From NCBI GenBank assembly GCA_001600495.1, contig BCKE01000017.1:562522-584494 (forward strand): 21,973 nt of DNA. Reading direction: 5' to 3'. The DNA comes from Pilasporangium apinafurcum. Taxonomy: Eukaryota; Oomycota; Peronosporomycetes; Pythiales; Pythiaceae. This document shows positions 8,734 to 21,973 of the stretch, piece after piece. The position numbers were made by a program, and so were the translations under genes. Each line of letters opens with the position of its first letter. Positions within the stretch are counted from its first letter, which is position 1. Under the pieces are notes generated by a model that searched no databases, was not told the DNA's origin, and was given only the letters and a program-made list of their open reading frames with translations.

Positions 8734-9513
8734 CTATATATGGTTTTTCACTTCAAGGATCTCTAGGCTCGCAAAGTGCTGCGTCTTGGGCCGGTGGATC
8801 TCAAATAACCCAAACTCTTTGCTTTGATACGCAATGGGTAGTTGTTGGTCCGAAATCTTATAGTATTCAAACCCATCTTGCTCCAGTTGATGGAAGAACG
8901 AGACGTCTGTATCGGCGCGATTTAACCCCAACAACACGAGTGTACGCTCATTTGCGATCTGGCGGAGCGTGTGAAGCAAGGGTTCGTACAACTCTCGCAG
9001 GTACGCCACGTCCGTACCCAAGACAACGTCCACTTGTGCTCCCCCTTCTTGTTCTTCTAGTGCGTGCAAGAACGCTGTTTCCTGGGGTACACTCCCCCAT
9101 GTGAGCTCCGCGACATGTACATTTACACCCGGTTGTAAGGTGCTGGCGTTCCTGGCCACATTCCGCTCCAGACATTCGATATGACTGGCCAGATCCGTGA
9201 GATAGACGTGCTTTGGATTGAAACACACCGCCGTCATCAATCCCACGTACCCTGTGCCGCTGCCCAGTTCCACAATGCATTTGCCATCAAAAAGCTGTCG
9301 GTAGCGCTGTTGCTGGGACTGCAAGTGCTGAGCCAGGATTTCGCCACTGGTCCAGATGGACCCGCCGATGCCGATGTCCCAATCACATTGAAACTGTAAT
9401 ACATGCGGCTCCTGTTGGCCATCCACGTGGACAGGGAGCGGAACCAGTGTCACTAGCTTGTCATGCTGCGCTTGCTCGTTGTTGTGTGCGCTCGTTGTCT
9501 CTTCGTTACTCAT
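8734..9513 (-). CDS. METTL21-like (family 16) protein lysine methyltransferase
   Basis: Single-exon 259-residue protein from ATG at 9513. It carries the seven-beta-strand SAM-methyltransferase fold in METTL21 style. DWDIGIGGSIWTSGEILAQHL at 44-64 matches the 'G...W.sa..La..L' entry block. Motif I is VELGSGTGYVGL at 81-92. An acidic SAM-ribose position is LTDL at 105-108 (Asp107), and LTWG lies at 137-140. VDVVLGTDVAYLRELYEPLL at 161-180 contains the DXXY signature (Asp168 to Tyr171) typical of METTL21/VCP-KMT lysine methyltransferases. A predicted final strand holds FFHQLEQDGFEYYKI. These enzymes methylate lysines on chaperones or elongation factors in the cytosol; the substrate here cannot be read from sequence. 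It is divergent from the TPR gene with 272 bases between starts. The first 20 residues are polar and probably disordered. Confidence 0.85.
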   Translation of the reverse strand: MSNEETTSAHNNEQAQHDKLVTLVPLPVHVDGQQEPHVLQFQCDWDIGIGGSIWTSGEILAQHLQSQQQRYRQLFDGKCIVELGSGTGYVGLMTAVCFNPKHVYLTDLASHIECLERNVARNASTLQPGVNVHVAELTWGSVPQETAFLHALEEQEGGAQVDVVLGTDVAYLRELYEPLLHTLRQIANERTLVLLGLNRADTDVSFFHQLEQDGFEYYKISDQQLPIAYQSKEFGLFEIHRPKTQHFASLEILEVKNHI

Positions 9514-9785
9514 TTGTGATCGTTGAGCATGCAGTCATGCAACGTACTTGATGTTTAGCAACCACCCAAATCAACAGTGACACAAAGTGCATATTCACTG
9601 GCGTGGCATAATTTTAGCCAATAATATATCCGTAAAAAATATTGATAACCAATGGTGGCGTAGCATTCTGAACCCAAAATACTTCGAATGTATCCATTTT
9701 GTGAGCAGTTAAAAATGGCCCACCTCCCATCATCAATATCGCAATAGACCAACGAGAGGGCCTTTACCTGCGCTTACTTAAAACG
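9514..9785. promoter_or_regulatory. Divergent intergenic region (methyltransferase / TPR)
   Basis: 272 bases between two start codons facing apart, so it must hold both promoters. TCAATATCGCAATAG near 9736 on the plus strand is weakly initiator-like for the TPR gene. No other motif is convincing. Confidence 0.4.
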
Positions 9786-10931
9786 ATGGATAGCGCAGGA
9801 GAGGACGGAGATTTAGAGCTGACGGAGCTGGATGGCATTGATGACGGCGAGCAGCCCCAGCATTCAAAGCAAAAGCACGAATGGAATGGCACAGAGCCCG
9901 AGCGATTTCAGTCTCTCAAGGACAAGAAGCAGACTGAATTGCTCGAAGAAGTACGGTTTATTGAAAACCAGAAAGAATTGATTGCACTGCAGCGCCTAGA
10001 CGATAAGTGCACACAATTGCAGCAGGAAGGGAAATATACAGAGGCACTGGAATGTATGGAGAAAGGGCTGGTGTTGAGGCAACATTTCTTTGGGGCAGAC
10101 AGCGATGAGGTCTGGAACTCCTGCAAAACTGTCGGCGAGATGTGCAATTTGCTGGCGATGACATATTTACAACAGGAAGAGTTTAGTGTTGTGCTGGAAT
10201 TACTCAAGAAAGCGGAGATTCTCACTGAGAAGCACCCAGCGGGTCGAGCGGTGACGCTGAATAACTTTGCATGTTACTACCGTCGTCAGGGAAATTTGCA
10301 CAAAGCGTTGACTTATTTAACTGAAGCCATTAAGATCGAGTCCAAGCTGGAGAATATCTCGAATCGAGCAGATACACATTTGAATATGTGTGCCGTACTC
10401 TCACAACTCGGCAAGCACCAAAGCGCACTGAGCCATGCGCAGTCGGCACTTATCTTTCTTCACGAGGAGCTCCAACTTTCTCGCTTTGGTGGTAGCAGTC
10501 CCAGTAAAAACAACAATAACCATCATCATTCTGTTGGGAGCAAGGAAGAAATTGACCCAGCCAAGCTAGATCGGGTAGCTGTCTTGGGTATTGCGTACCA
10601 TAACGTAGGCGTGGAGCAAGAATTTCTCAAGTGCTGGGATTTAAGTCTCCAGTCATATCAGAAAGGAGTGGAGCTGACGAGTCGCTACTTGGGAGAGAGT
10701 CATGGCATCGTCATCACCTTGCAAAATTCTATGCTCACAGCAAAGAGAAGCATGGCCAGCAAAACGCGAACAGATGGGGGGACTGGAGATGGCATCAGTC
10801 GATTACCACAGAAGAAGACAACATCAGGGAATCGCTTTGCACAGTTGAAGTCATCAATTAAATCGTCGCTAGGAAAGAAAAAAACAGCGCCAAAAATCGC
10901 AAAGAACAGCCGTGTCGCAACAGAGGGATAG
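9786..10931 (+). CDS. Tetratricopeptide-repeat protein
   Basis: Single-exon frame of 381 residues. The N-terminal 40 residues are acidic (ELTELDGIDDGEQ). Residues 45-75 form a charged helix. Helical hairpins with TPR character follow at about 73-106 (LQQEGKYTEALECMEKGLVL), 117-150 (CNLLAMTYLQQEEF), 155-188 (TLNNFACYYRRQGNLHKALT), 195-228 (LNMCAVLSQLGKHQSALSHA) and 265-303 (GIAYHNVGVEQEFLKCWDLS). The 34-residue spacing and the Gly/Tyr/Ala positions fit TPRs of the kinesin-light-chain/nephrocystin type. An Asn/His-rich insertion (SKNNNNHHHS) splits repeats four and five. The last 60 residues are Lys/Ser-rich and basic. TPR proteins scaffold complexes; a flagellar or trafficking role is possible but unproven. 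It ends 62 bases from the convergent glycosyltransferase. Confidence 0.85.
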   Translation: MDSAGEDGDLELTELDGIDDGEQPQHSKQKHEWNGTEPERFQSLKDKKQTELLEEVRFIENQKELIALQRLDDKCTQLQQEGKYTEALECMEKGLVLRQHFFGADSDEVWNSCKTVGEMCNLLAMTYLQQEEFSVVLELLKKAEILTEKHPAGRAVTLNNFACYYRRQGNLHKALTYLTEAIKIESKLENISNRADTHLNMCAVLSQLGKHQSALSHAQSALIFLHEELQLSRFGGSSPSKNNNNHHHSVGSKEEIDPAKLDRVAVLGIAYHNVGVEQEFLKCWDLSLQSYQKGVELTSRYLGESHGIVITLQNSMLTAKRSMASKTRTDGGTGDGISRLPQKKTTSGNRFAQLKSSIKSSLGKKKTAPKIAKNSRVATEG

Positions 10932-10993
10932 ATAACAAACAACTTATAATTTGTATCCTGTACTAATAATATTATCCATAATCACGAGAACGC

Positions 10994-12940
10994 TCACGTC
11001 ACATGACCACGTTTGACCAAGCGTTCAAACAGTTTCTCATATTCCGGAATTCGCTTCTTTTGAGAAAAGCGCTTCAATACAGTCTGGCGGGCATTATTTC
11101 CCAGTCGAGACCTTAACTCTGGATCTTGTACAAGTGACAGGATCGCATCCCGAAAACCATCTGCCACTGGTTGCTCATAAATGCCTAAACAATTATATCC
11201 GTCTTCTAAAAACTCACTCGTTCCTCCTGAAATGAAACCAACTACCGGAATCCCCACGCTCATGGCTTCTAAGACTGCGATCCCGAGTGTTTCACGCAGC
11301 AATGGACTGATAAATACGTCTAGTTCTTGAAAATGGCGGATCAATGAAGTTTCGTCGTTGTAAATTCCATTCACAAATTCGACGACATCGCTTAATTTCC
11401 ACTCGTGCGCCAGCGTCATCAATTGCGTTCTTATGGCTCCATCCCCTACCAGTCGAATGCGGCAATGAGCGCATAGCGGCTGTAACAATCTAGCGGTTTC
11501 TATCACGATACCCACTGATTTCTCTGTCGAGAGACGTCCCACATACCCAATCATAAACAAATTTTTCGAGGATTTATCCTGTGTTTTCGTCAGCGGTGGT
11601 TCAAAGCGATCTGTATCAATACCAGTAGTAAGTACTAATGTTCGCTTTGCCACGACATTTTGTGTGACTGAGGGATGGTGAAGTGCAAAATGCGATGGAG
11701 CCATCAGCACATCCAAGGAAAGCGTAACGGGGAAAAGATTGGCGAGTTCCATGATGACAGAGCGAACACCAGCGATCCGCGCAGCACAGACTAACATTTC
11801 ATCGCTTAAGCTCCTCGAATTGGCAAAGATTAACACGCCATTCGAACATGATCGCAACTGATTTACCATTTTCTCCCATAACTGAGATGCGAAACGTGGG
11901 GCGATGGTGTCTAACAGATCTTCCGTGGCTTGGCGGAACTCAACGCCCGAAGCACAGGTTCTGTTGATTTCTGGAAATGCCGTGTAAAAGCTTTCTAACA
12001 ATACGCTGTAGATATCATCCGGAGAAATCTCATGTTTTGTTAGTTCTTGCTTGGGAATCTGCAAACAAAAGAAATATACTTGATCGCTTCAAATGCTAGC
12101 AATCCTTTCATCGTTGTTTGCACTACTTACATCCAATTGCAGACCATCGAGAGTAACGTTGAGTTGCTCAAGTTTTTGTGTCCATGGAGCTTTCTGCTCT
12201 ACATCTTGAAATGTCTTCACAGAAAACTGCATCCAGGCTGGTGATGATGGGTTCGACTCTGTCAGTATCTCCATGAGTTGCAACCACATTTTCTTTTGGC
12301 CGTCAAACGCACCAGAAGTAGACATAATATAACATATTGGAATGGCTTTGGTGGCTGTTAATATAGACAGGGAATCATTTTGCTTTCGACTTGTACCAAG
12401 GTTTCCTAAGTTGGTGAAAATGACGGGTTTCTTCTCCGTGTCCTTCAAGATGTAGTGCCATTGAGGGTCATACTGAGCCGCACCAGTATTACAATACAGC
12501 GGCACAATGACTTCGATATGCAGCCTTTTTTCTGTTCCTGGAACTCGCGAGTGGTTCCGAAAAACCAACTCAAGTGTCCAAAAATGACTGCCTGGTTCAA
12601 TATTACTCATTTTCATCGATAGGCTCTTTGTGGCATGACGATAGTGACCTGCATCGCTGATTTTCTCGCCCGTAACCAACAAATAGCCATCTTCCGGTAT
12701 CAAGAAGTTCTGGATATGGAAATGCACCGCTAACACCCCCAATGTTCCTGTATCGCATGACACTTGCCACCACGAATGTGTACGGGGAAACGTTATCTCT
12801 AGTGATGGGTGTACATAGAGTTTCTCCTTGTTATCATTATGGATGCCGCCGGGATTAGAATGCTGAGGCCATGCGGCTACAAAGACAATGAGCAGAACAA
12901 TCAGATACGACACTACAAGCTGGACAATCATCATTCCCAT
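10994..12940 (-). CDS. Membrane-anchored GT4-family glycosyltransferase with N-terminal beta-rich domain (two exons)
   Basis: Exons 12940-12131 and 12058-10994 are separated by a 72-base phase-0 intron (GTAAGT..TTTGCAG) and encode 624 residues. Residues 4-24 are a hydrophobic signal-anchor (IVQLVVSYLIVLLIVFVAAW), so the rest probably faces the ER/Golgi lumen. Residues 30-270 are an unfamiliar beta-rich region with several NxS/T sequons. The C-terminal half has the GT-B features of family GT4: GIDTDRFEPP at 416-425, GYVGRLSTEKSV at 441-452, LVGDGAIRTQL at 473-483, and the nucleotide-sugar-binding EX7E motif (Glu526 to Glu534, RETLGIAVLEAMSVGIPVVG). GGTSEFLEDGYNCLG closes the donor site. It should transfer a sugar from a nucleotide donor with retention. 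Donor and acceptor are unknown. Convergent with the TPR gene, divergent from phytochelatin synthase. Confidence 0.88.
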
Positions 12941-13834: not shown

Positions 13835-15444
13835 ATGTGGCCGCGGAGTCGTGAACTTTACACGCGCCGTCCACGTTCGACAGTCGCCTCACACAAGCAC
13901 TGGGTTTTTGTGTCATCTGCGTCTGCCGCCGTTCGCACCAGCAGCCCACGTCGCCATCGCTTGACACCGACACCACAGTATCAGAATCATTTTCGTCTCG
14001 CGCCATTTGTCTCTTCATCTGTGAAGCCAGACAGTAGCAGCAGCTCCACCACTACCAAGAGCGTCGGGATCACCATCTACCACGAAAAGACCAAACCAAA
14101 GTACCAACTCTCGGCATCGTTAGCTGCGCTTTGGAAAGACTCCCCGCCGGTCGTTGTTTCGAGCCGTATCAGCAGCAGTAAAACAAGTGGATTTAAACCC
14201 ATCATGTCACCAAACACAGCAGATCAACAACAGGAAGAACTGAAAGAGTGCAATTTGCCGATGGAGATGGAATGTGGTTGCAAGACAAAACGGCTTAAGG
14301 AAATGCAGGAAGCGGAGATTCTAGCTAAAGCGGCGGCAAAACTAACAGCCATTTCTGTTGCGGATATCGCAACTACTGCGCTGAACAACCAAGAGGATCG
14401 TGATGGTAGTATCACAGTCACGCGAACCGATTCTTCCACCGCAGCTGCTATTGTGCATCATCACCATACGCGCTCAATCGCGTTTGAATCGACTTTTCAT
14501 CGACGGATTCTGCCACAGGATTGCATTGCATTTTCCAGTCCAGAGGGGCGGAAATTATTCACCGAAGCTATTAACAGCCCGCACAACTACATGCAAATCT
14601 ATTTCCCACTCGCAGAACAATTCATCACACAGGCAGAACCCGCGTATTGTGGGCTGGCAACGCTGGCAATGTGCTTAAATGCGCTGCAGATCGACCCGGG
14701 TCGGTTATGGAAGGGCTCGTGGCGCTGGTTTAGCGAAGAACTCTTTGATTGTTGTACCTCGCTCAGTGTGGCGAAAGAAAAAGGTATCAGCTTATCAGAG
14801 TTCATCTGCCTGGCCAGGTTAGTTGATTTCTTTTTGGGTATCATTTTGCTGGTTATATATTGAACTAATCTAGTGTCCTGTTGCCAATAGATGCAATGGT
14901 GTGATGACGGAGGACATGCGCGCCACGAGTGATTTTACGCTGGAGGATTTCCGCTCCATTGTACAGCGCAGTTGCTCGACGAGCTCCGAGATTGTAGTGC
15001 TGAATTACAGTCGCAAGGTATTGGGACAAACTGGCGATGGCCATTTTTCCCCTATTGGTGGATACCATGCAGAGCGCGATATGGGTACGTTGTCGAATAT
15101 GCCTTATTTTTTTTTCATTTCTAAAAGGCTAACATTATCCACTTATTGCAATTGATACAGTACTTCTACTGGACGTAGCTCGGTTCAAGTACCCTCCTCA
15201 TTGGGTGCGACTCTCATTGGTATATGAAGCTATGCAACGCCTTGACGAGTCGATTGGCCTGCCTCGTGGTCTCGTGGTTCTGAAGGAAAGCGCCCATGCA
15301 ACGGGTCCAACGCTGGTGAAGCAACTTGTGCACAGTGCTGATCCGTCAACGCCCGTGAAACCTGCGCCTCATCTCTGCTGCTCCAGTTCAATGGCCATTG
15401 AATCAGCTCGCCATGTGTCGGGGGTGGCAACGCAGCAGCACTGA
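13835..15444 (+). CDS. Phytochelatin synthase (glutathione gamma-glutamylcysteinyltransferase), three exons
   Basis: Exons 13835-14817, 14891-15084 and 15161-15444 (introns of 73 and 76 bases, GT-AG, phases closing) encode 486 residues. The enzyme transfers gamma-Glu-Cys from glutathione to make metal-chelating phytochelatins. The papain-like catalytic domain runs from about 218 to 450. It contains AEPAYCGLATLAM with nucleophile Cys272, DPGRLWKGSWRWF, TGDGHFSPIGGYHAERDM with His379, and LLLDVARFKYPPHW with Asp397. Triad spacing (107 and 18) matches the plant enzyme (106 and 18). Residues 1-215 are an extra N-terminal region rich in Ser/Thr/Arg, with Cys pairs (ECGCK at 146-150) and a four-His run; the first 60 residues are basic and could be a targeting peptide. 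The usual long Cys-rich C-terminal domain is almost absent, leaving a CC pair near the end. An internal start at Met124 is possible, so the N-terminus is uncertain. Confidence 0.93.
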
Positions 15445-17045: not shown

Positions 17046-20000
17046 ATGTTGCTATTAGGGATGTTGATAAGTCTCACAGGACTTTCCTCCATCATGACAT
17101 CGCTTGCACAATTGACCAAAACTGACCTAGCCACACCTCCACTTAAGCCAACTGGAGCCCAGGATGCGGATGTGCAGGCAGATATGCAGCGCAAGTTGGC
17201 ACGCCGGTTGCTCGAAACAACTACAACATCGATGCCGTCACCTCACGATCCTTTCATGTTTGGTACGTCTCTCTGATGCCGGTGTGCATGCGTGTAAATT
17301 GCTTCTCTAATTACGACAATTGATAATGGATGTACCGTAGACAATCATCTTGTGGGAAACGTCATGGTGGAAAGTCACCCAGTGTACGGATCAGCATCCT
17401 TCTCCATTCGGTCCGGCAGGATATACCGAACGATCGCTGTGGTAGGGTCGAATGGTGCGCCAATCGGTGCGACACAAGTCCCTACGCAAACTGACGCACG
17501 GTATGCATTAATAAATTTTCGCCATTGAGTTAATGTTCATGGTCTGACAGTGTTGCTTTACAATCTCCTACAAAGGAAGTATATTAATGTCGGTGATGTT
17601 GTCTTCTTTAATCAAATGGATTCAAGAACTGTGGTGGGTGTGAGCACATCCAACATTTATATTGATCAAGGTCTTCAGCATTCAATGGCTGGTGGTGAAA
17701 GTATTGAAATTCGCAAACAATTGATGTCGATGAGTGAAGATACATCTTTGCAAGGAGTAATCAATTCGCGAGGATTTCGCCTTCAATCACGTGACGACAC
17801 TATCGAAGCTGCTACCGCTCACAAATCGTTGCATATTCGCCATTTTGCAGATGGTAGTTCCACACAAGCGAGATTACTACCAGGAAATGTGTCTGTAGAA
17901 CACGGTAGCGATGCTGTAGTAACGTTAGTCGATTTGTCCGTAGAACTCTCCGGAAGCACTTTTATTCGCCTTGCTGGGGACTCGTATTTGGTAGATCCTA
18001 TGCGCGCCGTAAACAGTTCGATGTTCTTCCTTGATCGACCTTACGCTGGCCCTACATACGATGATTTACCGATCTATGTCGATGGTATTGGGACGGGTGT
18101 ATTATTCCATGTAAACGGTATGTCTGGTGTGGAAGCTGGAGCAAGTATTGACGTAATCGCTGCAGTATCGGATGAAGACAACTCAACGGATGTGCTTCTT
18201 TCTACAACCACCAATGGTATTGCAACAAGCAGATTGAAAATAAACGAAGCTGGGATCCAGCTTCTTGGTAAAACGTCCATGATTTCGTCTGAGGTCGATG
18301 ACATTAAAATTCAATCCGCAAAGCATTTATCCTTGACCGCAGGTGCTTTGAATAATAAACCCGGCTCAAACGTTGAAATACATGCTGGTGCATCCAATTA
18401 TCAACCAGGCGGTAATATCGTCCTGATATCGGGGCAAAGCATGCAATCTTCATCTGGAAATGTTTTTATTGGTTCAGCTCCATCTGTAGCTTATGCCACC
18501 ACTTCTGGTTTAATTGAGTTGGGTACTGGCAAGGGAAGTAATGGATCGTCCGGTACTTTGACTATCCACTCCGGTGACGCCTTATCAGGTAATTCGGGTG
18601 ATATTCATATTTTTTCGGGGTTGGCAAGCAAAGCCAAGTCCGGTGATGTGATACTTCAGACTTCGCAAGCTAATGGTACAGCTGGTTCCATAATGCTTTC
18701 AGTCGGTGCTACCAACGATACCAGAGGCGGATCGGTGAATATTACAGCCGGTACTTCGCTAGCTCCCAGTTCCAGTAATAATGGTGGTAGTATTTTCGTT
18801 CACGCTGGTTCTGGTCCAAACTACGGCGGAAATGTAGATATTATTGCTGGAATTGGCAACGATACTCGAGGTGGCCATGTGCTCATTGCTAGTGGAAATA
18901 GTATCGGCGGATCGAGCGGCAATATATCAATTAAAACTCGAACTTCTGGTACTGACGGCAGCAGTGGTTCGGTGTCTATATCGTCTGGAATTTCCAAAAA
19001 AGGTGATTCAGGCGAGATCTTAATTGCTACATCAGCTGCCTCCAGCGGTATGGCGGGCTCAATCTCGCTTCAGGTCGGTAGGGGCGACATTTCTGAAGGT
19101 GGAAAAATATCTATCTTTGGCGGAAACACCACTAAATCTGATGGCGTTGGAGGGTTCATTTTGCTGAAAGGTGGTGATGGGCAAGTTAACGGAGGCAACG
19201 TTAACGTCATTGCTGGGGCTGCTCAAGGTACAAAGGGAGGAAATGTTACGATTACAAGTGGCGCTGGCAAAAGCTCTGACAGTGGCGATATCGTAATTGC
19301 AACCCCAGCATCAGGTATCAATCGCACAAGCGGTTCATTGACATTTTTTACCGGCAACTCGAATGGTGGGAGCTCTGGTAACATCAAAATCTCAACTTTG
19401 GACGCTGTTAACGGAGAAAGTGGGTCCATTCTCGTGGAAGTAGGAAGCAGTGATGTCGCGAATGGAGGCACAATCAATCTTGTTGGTGGTAATAATACGG
19501 TCGATACGGGAGGTATAATATCAGTGACTGGTGGATTTGGCGTTTCTGGAGGGGGTAACGTATCACTCAATGGTGGATCTACTAGTAACGCAGTCGGTGG
19601 CAGCATACGCATCATAAGTGGAAGTGGAACCGATGCAATCAGTGGAGACATAGTGATTGGCAGCGACAATTCAGGGATTGGTGGGACAAGTGGGTCTTTG
19701 GCGTTATTTACGGGCGAATCAAGTGAAGGCGACTCAGGCAATGTATCATTGTCGACATCAAACGCTAACAGTGGAAGAAGTGGTTCCATTTCATTGACTG
19801 CGGGATCTGGAAGTACCATTGACAGTGGATCAGTGAGCCTTACGGGTGGATCCAGTTCGGATAATGACGGACATGGCGGTCCTGTTTCAATCCTCGGTGG
19901 TGCTAGTAAATCTGTTGGTGGTAGCGTATCAATACTTGGCGGAATTGGAGACAATGAGTATGGTGGGGACGTGGTGATCTCAAGTGGGAATGGTAGTGCT

Positions 20001-21973
20001 GCTTCGAGTGGCAACGTGACCATAATGACTGCTGCTGCTGGAGCTGCGGATAAGCCTAGTGGATCTCTCGTGTTCTCAAGTGGGCTATCTGAGAACGCTA
20101 ATACTGGTGACATAGTCGTTTTGACCTCTGATTCTACCAACGGTATGAGCGGTGCAATTTCGGCTGTAGTGGGGTCAAGTGGTGCTGATGCAGGTAACGT
20201 GATACAAATGTCTGCTGGAAATGGATTCTTGGAAGGTGGAGCGATCATACTTACTGGAGGACATGGAAGCGACATTGGTGGATCTATCCATTTGACTGGT
20301 GGTAGTGGGAATAGCACGAAAGGTGGGAACATTCAAATAACTAGCGGCGCTGGTAATACTGGATCCGTTTTGATTGGTACAGCAAATTCAAGTCCTGGCC
20401 ACGATAGTGGTCCACTGGTATTGTCAACTGGTACATCAAATGCTGGTGACTCTGGCGATATTTCTATTTTGACAGGTAATGCAACAGACGGAACCAGCGG
20501 AACCATTGCTATTTCCGTCGGCGTCGGTGACGACGACATCGGAGGCGATGTAACCATTTCTGCTGGTTCGTCAAGCAACATTGCCGGGACTGGTGGTCGA
20601 GTACTGATTGAAGGTGGCGTAAGCGAGAGCGGTGGTGAGGTCGTAATTTCGGGTGGTGCCGGTAACTCGATGTTTGGTGGCGACGTAAAGATTGAAAGTG
20701 GTGGCGGGTCAAACGTGACGAGNGGCAACGTGTTGATTGCAAGTTTAGCTTCTGGTAGTACACAAACGAGTGGATCATTGTTATTCTCGACTGGTGTATC
20801 CACTGGGGGAGATTCTGGATCAATTGACATCGCAACATCTAATGCTATTGATGGACAGTCTGGTTCGATTCGTTTGTCGGTGGGATTAAGTGATTCGAAG
20901 TATGGCGGCGATGTTACGATTAGCGCTGGTAATAGTTCGAACGATGTTGATGTAGATGCTGGTATTGGTGGTCGTGTCATCCTCAGCGGTGGCAGCGGTA
21001 CATCAATGGGTGGTGATGTAGAAGTGATGGGAGGTGCTGGATTAGCCAAAGTTGGTGGATCCATCCGTGTCATAAGTGGTTCCAGTACTTCTGCCACCAG
21101 TGGTGACATTGACATCAGAAGTGCTGATGCAAGTTCGTCGCAGACCAGTGGGTCAGTGATAATGTCCAGTGGTATATCGTACAATGGGGACTCGGGTAGT
21201 GTGAATGTGAGTAGTTCAAGTGCTAGTGGTGGACGTGGTGGGACCATCATGTTAAGTGTGGGATCGGGTGATGCCGAGAAGGGTGGTGCATTGACCATTG
21301 AAGCAGGAGAGTCGCGCGATTCGAGTGGTGTTGGTGGTACCGTCTCTATCGTCGGTGGTGTAGGTATGTCTGATGGAGGTGATGTTACGATATCAGGCGG
21401 GAACGGATCGACCCAGGTTGGGGGAAGCGTTCGTATAATAGGCGGAGGTAGTGATGAAGTCAACAGTGGTGATGTGGCAATTGGAAGTCGTGGATCAATT
21501 TTGGGTGAACGAAGTGGCTCTGTGACGTTGTCTACCGGTGCAACTGCAGCAGGCGAATCCGGTAATATTTCTATCTCGACTTCAGATTCAACTGGTGGTA
21601 AGAGTGGTTTTATTAAGATCAGTGTTGGTTCGGGTGACAACAAATATGGAGGATCGTTGGATTTATCTGGTGGTACAAGTCGACACAACGATGGAGTTGG
21701 TGGATTGGTATCGATTCGTGGTGGTATTGGTTCCGACATTGGCGGTGATGTGGTGATCAACGGCGGATTCGGTAACTTTACTGGTGGTGGCAACGTGCAA
21801 GTGACAAGTGGTGAAGGCTATGGTGCGAACAGTGGTGACGTAATTATTGGCACTGCTCATGGTGATCCAAGTCAGTCGAGCGGTTCATTGACATTTTTTA
21901 CCGGCAACTCGAATGGTGGGAGCTCTGGTAACATCAAAATCTCAACTTTGGACGCTGTTAACGGAGAAAGTGG
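17046..21973 (+). CDS. Giant secreted Gly/Ser-rich beta-solenoid protein, 5-prime part (three exons so far, runs off the window)
   Basis: Exons 17046-17262, 17341-17500 and 17576 to beyond 21973 (introns of 78 and 75 bases; phases 1 and 2 close) encode at least 1,591 residues without a stop. The ATG at 17046 follows an in-frame TAA. Residues 1-21 are a signal peptide (MLLLGMLISLTGLSSIMTSLA), so the protein should be secreted or enter the secretory pathway. Residues 22-370 are a non-repetitive head domain with beta-like segments (VVGVSTSNIYIDQG, LQGVINSRGFRLQS, FIRLAGDSYLVDP), recalling fibre or adhesin heads. From about residue 373 on, the chain is a regular array of ~15-residue coils of form [SG]G-x-[IV]-x-[IVL]-x-x-G, expected to fold as a right-handed beta-solenoid. 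Many NxS/T sequons occur; Cys is essentially absent from the array. No family was recognised. A cell-surface or extracellular adhesive role is inference. The C-terminus lies outside. Confidence 0.85.
19329..19423 (+). repeat. Exact 95-bp repeat, copy 1
   Basis: Identical base for base to 21879-21973, 2,550 bases (seven higher-order units, 850 codons) downstream and in the same reading frame. Sequence upstream of the repeat differs between the copies. Confidence 0.97.
21879..21973 (+). repeat. Exact 95-bp repeat, copy 2, at the window end
   Basis: Identical to 19329-19423. The match runs up to the last base of the window, so its true length is unknown. Other higher-order units of the array are far less similar to each other. 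Confidence 0.97.

Follow-up and report, generated by a model that had tools for sequence, protein, structure and literature searches.

A giant, predicted secreted repeat protein of the oomycete Pilasporangium apinafurcum with an eight-coil unit and a likely phage-type C-terminal tip

At the end of a contig of the oomycete Pilasporangium apinafurcum, a long open frame of Gly- and Ser-rich repeats runs off the assembled sequence, and the question raised by this locus is how the encoded protein is built and what such a protein could be for. The locus was analysed in a window of 21,973 nucleotides (NCBI GenBank assembly GCA_001600495.1, contig BCKE01000017.1, positions 562,522 to 584,494 of the forward strand), which is the terminal stretch of the contig called C17 here (C17:562522-584494); positions are given in window numbering unless another contig is named, and searches of the organism's own genome covered its 36.5-Mb assembly of 136 contigs. 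In keeping with an oomycete source, this genome shows at least 50 matches to elicitins, a family typical of oomycetes for which none of 14 control genomes gave a match. In the original prediction, made from the letters of the DNA, the gene starting at 17046 had been described as encoding a giant secreted protein made of a higher-order beta-solenoid unit of eight coils. The eight-coil unit stands, the protein is larger than the window could hold, and it likely ends in a motif of the kind found at the tips of phage tail fibres.

The array of coils, each of about 15 residues, spans 18408 to the window end on the plus strand according to the coil listing. Self-identity of the protein peaks at lags of 122 (0.235) and 15 residues (0.228), over a mean of 0.124, in agreement with the two nested periods first proposed, the unit being about 122 residues or eight coils of about 15 residues. 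The first 11 coils (18408..18914, plus strand) lie ahead of the strict eight-coil register and are followed by eight full units of 117-125 aa each as cut (18915..21830, plus strand), defined by the coil listing, self-identity and unit alignment, and by part of a ninth unit up to the contig end (21831..21973, plus strand), defined by the unit alignment, which agrees with the count of eight units and a partial ninth originally put forward. Among 77 coils picked by pattern, the coil class (G versus the rest) agrees in 59 of 69 pairs of coils eight apart, a fraction reached by none of 10,000 shuffles at any period from 2 to 15.

The register was also followed over the 23 full units of the window and of its continuation on contig C53, described below; these units are partly non-independent, in that unit 10 duplicates unit 3, unit 9 differs from unit 2 in its first coil only and unit 11 starts as unit 4. 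The first residue is S or T in slots 1-3 and G in slots 6-8 in 23 of 23 units, whereas the border slots are mixed (slot 4: S in 14, A in 5 and G in 4; slot 5: G in 14, S in 6 and A in 3), and are thus looser than the rule according to which coils 1-4 begin with SG and coils 5-8 with GG. Coil length is slot-specific as well, the commonest lengths from slot 1 to slot 8 being 16, 15, 15, 15, 17, 14, 15 and 15 residues, with slot 1 at 16 aa in 18, slot 5 at 17 aa in 16 and slot 6 at 14 aa in 19 of the 23 units. Over 115 coils picked by a pattern that itself requires G at position 2 and hydrophobic residues at positions 4 and 6, small residues occupy positions 8, 11 and mostly 14, position 8 being T, S, G, V or A in 99% and position 11 being G, S, A or T in 98% of these coils.

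With 24% Gly and 19% Ser, the array has a composition that would also suit a flexible, largely disordered matrix protein in the wall of cells or cysts, comparable to loricrin, and the low confidence of a three-unit structural model (see below) points the same way. The fixed hydrophobic alternation and the slot-fixed coil lengths would, however, be unexpected in a disordered chain, and we regard this explanation as improbable. Opposite the array, at 19223-21793, minus-strand open frames of 369 and 486 aa are probably a by-product of its Gly and Ser codons.

Contig C17 stops inside the gene, and contig C53 of the same genome carries it onward. The two share 20088..21973 (plus strand), equal to C53:1-1886, and differ there only at four positions where one side reads N. 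The frame is open over 1,481 codons in C17 and 2,699 codons in C53, up to a stop at C53:8098-8100, which bears out the giant open frame first reported; the overlapped product of both contigs is at least 3,662 aa long and contains 23 full units among its roughly 200 coils. Only two Cys occur in these 3,662 residues, both within the C-terminal tip, and no hydrophobic tail is present in the sequence at the C-terminal end of the product.

Within the array, an 854-bp block (19329..20182, plus strand) is repeated, its second copy starting at 21879 and continuing on the other contig (C53:1792-2645). The copies lie 2,550 bp, or seven units, apart, with sharp ends and no called difference between them; both contigs end 95 bases into a copy of the block, the pattern expected when a graph assembler meets a repeat, and each contig contains the sequence that separates the two copies. 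Because the block occurs twice without a called difference, the 2,550-bp loop is counted here as at least one copy. All these features would be expected if the duplication, or the whole length of the array, were partly an assembly artefact. Against this, the other two-unit stretches that could be aligned (n=16) share only 36-48% identity with the query stretch, and the eight-coil unit is independent of the block; an artefact is considered improbable.

At the other end of the gene, a three-exon model with a signal peptide had been proposed. Exon 1 (17046..17262, plus strand) opens with ATG and a signal-peptide-like hydrophobic start, MLLLGMLISLTGLSSIMTSLAQ, after which the head begins, and its open frame ends at a GTACGT donor; exon 2 (17341..17500, plus strand) continues the head, its TAG acceptor and GTATGC donor keeping the frame open, with other donors possible; the first part of exon 3 (17576..18407, plus strand) completes the non-repeat head in an open frame. 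The first two parts have no Pfam match, and the third has none at or above the cut-off. The head comprises about 380 residues and is unique within the organism's own genome, where its stretch 17604-18365 occurs a single time. A stop-free version of the model thus exists, but its second intron is ambiguous, since 13 one-intron and 159 two-intron GT-AG models also stay open within the limits set and 12 of the listed alternatives outscore the model used here by a simple splice score. No other stretch of 19 residues in the 3,662-aa product is as hydrophobic as residues 2-20 (1.79, against 1.42 for the next such stretch outside); the hydrophobic N-terminus claimed is therefore present, and on hydropathy it is consistent with a signal peptide.

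After the array, the protein closes with a C-terminal domain of about 200 residues; its last ~220 residues are encoded at a single place in the organism's own genome. The tip, which is formed by the last ~35 residues, contains IGDFRFDASRLYICAESSKWRYVAM and resembles the extreme C-terminus of phage structural proteins. The first clue was a tblastn match of the C-terminal domain, at E 0.5, to a structural protein of a cyanophage and to the tail fibre of a Klebsiella phage, and the motif was recognised on reading the C-termini of these two phage proteins. The cyanophage tip matches 165 phage records, and in all 10 of the phage records opened the tip ends 3-27 bases ahead of the annotated gene end. 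A profile was made from 12 phage tips, of which 9 are annotated as structural, tail or depolymerase proteins and 3 are unnamed. It aligns with the oomycete C-terminal piece without gaps at 18.7-19.6 bits, whereas none of 2,000 shuffles exceeds 6.8 bits, and in 80 kb of DNA from the same genome it ranks the tip first of 2,492 stop-to-stop pieces, at 14.4 bits against 8.5 for the next. When compared with the Protein Data Bank (PDB), the phage-tip profile found no solved structure; the C-terminal domain gave by sequence a phage baseplate protein at E 0.1, which is not used as proof. From its sequence, the window protein likely, though not provably, carries a phage-type tip motif.

Among the matches listed by two genome searches with repeat queries, whose counts are lower bounds, the array was found at only two loci, C17/C53 and C127. 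On the latter contig (15 kb; L011), the array occupies two long minus-strand frames and has a looser register with a lag of ~240. A Peptidase_S74 domain starting with SDRRLK is placed inside this array (C127:4418-4603, minus strand; E 1.5e-13). S74 is a self-cleaving chaperone that aids trimerisation of phage tailspikes, as is established for the endosialidase tailspikes, and it is normally C-terminal. In C127 a long run of further coils follows it without a stop; the domain is thus mid-chain and its self-cleavage would cut the C127 protein in two. Upstream of the array on the same strand, an open frame includes a stretch rich in Cys that matches PSI below threshold (E 0.0032), and this frame would belong to the same gene.

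Three further S74 loci are present in the genome, on contigs C52, C89 and C111. The S74 protein on C52 (C52:57383-60562; L015) matches phage tail-fibre families (phrog_5668, E 1.9e-22) and adjoins a Sel1-repeat frame (E 9.1e-11). On the other two contigs, S74-tipped open reading frames (ORFs) stand beside viral-looking ones (C89:91457-94606, L017; C111:30402-33548, L018): a match to Pox_A32, a packaging-ATPase family, adjoins the S74 ORF of C111 (E 2.5e-5), and an ORF that looks capsid-like by eye, with no Pfam match, adjoins that of C89. Both loci are possibly endogenous polinton-like viruses.

The explanation that we favour, tentatively and short of calling it probable, is a giant secreted fibre, possibly trimeric, that follows the plan of a phage tail fibre and serves attachment or coating. 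This reading is based on the slot-specific coil lengths and first residues, the open frames, the hydrophobic N-terminus, the tip motif, the S74 paralogue, fold matches to phage proteins and the two Cys of the tip; the adhesin or surface fibre of the original prediction gains indirect support from the phage-like tip and the S74 paralogue, both of which lie outside the window. According to this scheme, the protein would be exported, and each coil would add a short strand, with hydrophobic residues at positions 4 and 6 of the coil, to a long thin rod. The chain would most likely work as a trimer, as phage fibres do, closed or nucleated by the C-terminal tip, and the rod would hold the tip or the head away from the cell. 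The eight-coil unit may be the ancestral unit of duplication, maintained by selection on coil length and register. The protein would serve to attach or to coat a surface such as that of zoospores or cysts; matches to radial-spoke and IFT46 proteins in the same genome make a flagellate zoospore stage plausible.

Structure prediction was carried out with AlphaFold on single chains. For a two-unit sequence aligned with 17 in-register rows, the best model of the five reached a pLDDT of 72.3 and a pTM of 0.56, the others ranging from 65 to 48 in pLDDT, and DSSP returned no secondary structure for it, possibly through program failure. Foldseek with the two-unit model found no match in the PDB, whereas viral models yielded 15 matches at E 10 or better, of which three are to phage proteins (E 5.5e-6 to 7.5e-4). 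For three units with seven rows, the pLDDT was only 50.4, with hardly any strand and low confidence.

These models bear on the main alternative to a trimer, a monomeric single-chain beta-solenoid rod of ~100 nm (at ~4.8 Å per coil) that would serve as a surface or cell-wall adhesin and would have acquired its phage-like tip by convergence. In the pattern-picked coils, positions 4 and 6 are hydrophobic and 8, 11 and mostly 14 are small, which fits a small triangular coil, and the pLDDT of 72 for two units is in favour of the rod. As a rule, however, AlphaFold predicts single-chain solenoids well, and here neither the two-unit model, for which no strands were returned, nor the nearly strandless three-unit model confirms one, while no significant PDB match was obtained by sequence or fold. 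The regular 15-aa coil with alternating hydrophobics fits the beta-solenoid first proposed, but the models do not confirm its stacked strands, and a monomeric rod is judged somewhat unlikely. The two faces or segments along the rod that were also suggested would rest on the sequence pattern. The AlphaFold picture would fit strands that pair only between three copies of the chain, but a poor model would look alike.

Several results weigh against the phage-like fibre. Beyond the weak three-unit model, the three phage proteins found by Foldseek superpose with a root-mean-square deviation of 14-20 Å and look sequence-driven. The comparison of tips grew from a non-significant seed; the bit score of the tip is somewhat selected, because the profile was seeded from relatives of one hit of this query; on the whole C53 frame in the 80-kb set the profile reaches only E 0.0037; and the comparison of the tip with PHROGs gave a weak match (E 0.053). 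No S74 domain was found in the window gene itself, either by Pfam in the window frame, the C53 frame and exons 1-2 or by the genome search there. Lastly, the array, the head and the C-terminal domain have no confirmed relative in the phage, viral and prokaryote collections searched.

The searches behind this last point were as follows. In Pfam, the only database with which exons 1 and 2 were compared, the window gene had sub-threshold matches only (best E 0.066 for the head and 0.1 for the C-terminal domain), and RTX, TSP1, EGF and pectate-lyase domains were absent to E 1 from the window frame, the C53 frame and exons 1-2. NCBIfam gave nothing significant for the window gene, and PHROGs gave no match below E 0.19 for the window frame and none below E 0.05 for the C-terminal pieces. 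By sequence, the PDB returned only chance nanobody matches (E 0.15) and nothing with the repeat profile; head and repeat had no significant match in Pfam, NCBIfam or the PDB. Pattern matches in viral contigs (1 with the C-terminus, 4 with the head, 5 with a short repeat alignment, 18 with one unit and 116 with a C127 piece) and 594 pattern-matched stretches in prokaryote genome contigs obtained with two units were in no case confirmed by tblastn, whose low-complexity filtering may hide repeats, and phage proteins searched with two units gave no match. Among the open-access papers listed by literature searches, none described such an architecture in its title or the start of its abstract.

A flagellar role can also be envisaged, with the protein as a component of the anterior flagellum's tubular mastigonemes, the protein being giant and predicted to be secreted in a genome with flagellar gene matches. 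Known mastigoneme proteins are Cys-rich, against 2 Cys in 3,662 residues here. A published mastigoneme protein is moreover given as ~64 kDa (PMC12223298). Little credence is given to this role. A bolder form of the fibre reading holds that the phage tail-fibre plan (repeat shaft, trimer tip and S74 in a sister gene) was taken over by an oomycete lineage and enlarged by the eight-coil growth module to secreted trimeric fibres of well over 100 nm, for zoospore or cyst attachment or as a flagellar hair; as a whole, this scenario is unlikely.

Should the tip and the S74 paralogue be what they seem, the phage-like fibre would represent reuse of phage tail-fibre architecture by a eukaryote in a giant extracellular fibre. 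It would also offer a specific candidate for the material with which zoospores adhere or are coated, about which little is known, and would show in nature how a fibre is lengthened by a fixed eight-coil module. Its parts are of known kinds; as far as searched, in the phage, viral and prokaryote collections and the organism's own genome, their combination in a eukaryote with a strict eight-coil module is new. Similar repeats without a name may occur in stramenopile genomes and the own genome was the only eukaryotic one searched, so novelty to oomycetes is not claimed.

Elsewhere in the window, positions 13835-14863 encode a phytochelatin synthase in its N-terminal part (PF05023, E 1.6e-38), and neighbours of cellular type at 8734-12064 are a Methyltransf_16 protein, a TPR protein and a Glycos_transf_1 glycosyltransferase. 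On C53, an ORF at C53:10021-10620 (L010:21-620) resembles by eye the end of a TnpB/Fanzor type nuclease, with a sub-threshold Cas12f1-like_TNB match (E 0.0011). A viral insertion was also considered and is held unlikely, as the Pfam-matched neighbours in the window are cellular in type and the gene appears to have introns.

Among known systems, the giant extracellular proteins of fructophilic lactic acid bacteria are comparable as surface proteins of 3,000-8,000 aa, in a paper that uses the term beta-solenoid 61 times (PMC12863079); those proteins are bacterial and are set beside the window protein by description only. In oomycetes, the repeat of the ventral-vesicle adhesin of zoospores is thrombospondin, whereas by Pfam the window protein has neither a thrombospondin nor a Sushi domain. 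That adhesin, the Sushi-domain protein PnCcp and the large-peripheral-vesicle protein are described as stored or secreted around encystment (PMC3869178), the role supposed here. With the Peptidase_S74 (PF13884) fibres, the likeness consists of the C127 paralogue that has the domain and of the C52 protein that matches phage tail-fibre families, while the window gene is without it and the C127 copy is mid-chain and followed by more coils. Comparable too are the C-terminal tips of Caudoviricetes tail fibres, tailspikes and other structural proteins (consensus VPASATAxGTxGxIAxDxxYxYVCVATNTWKRxALxTW), which share with the oomycete tip the C-terminal position, 32 columns without gaps and the G-D, D, LY-C and W core; the oomycete gene differs from them in being eukaryotic, with predicted introns and a signal-peptide-like start, and in having a second Cys and ten more residues past the motif.

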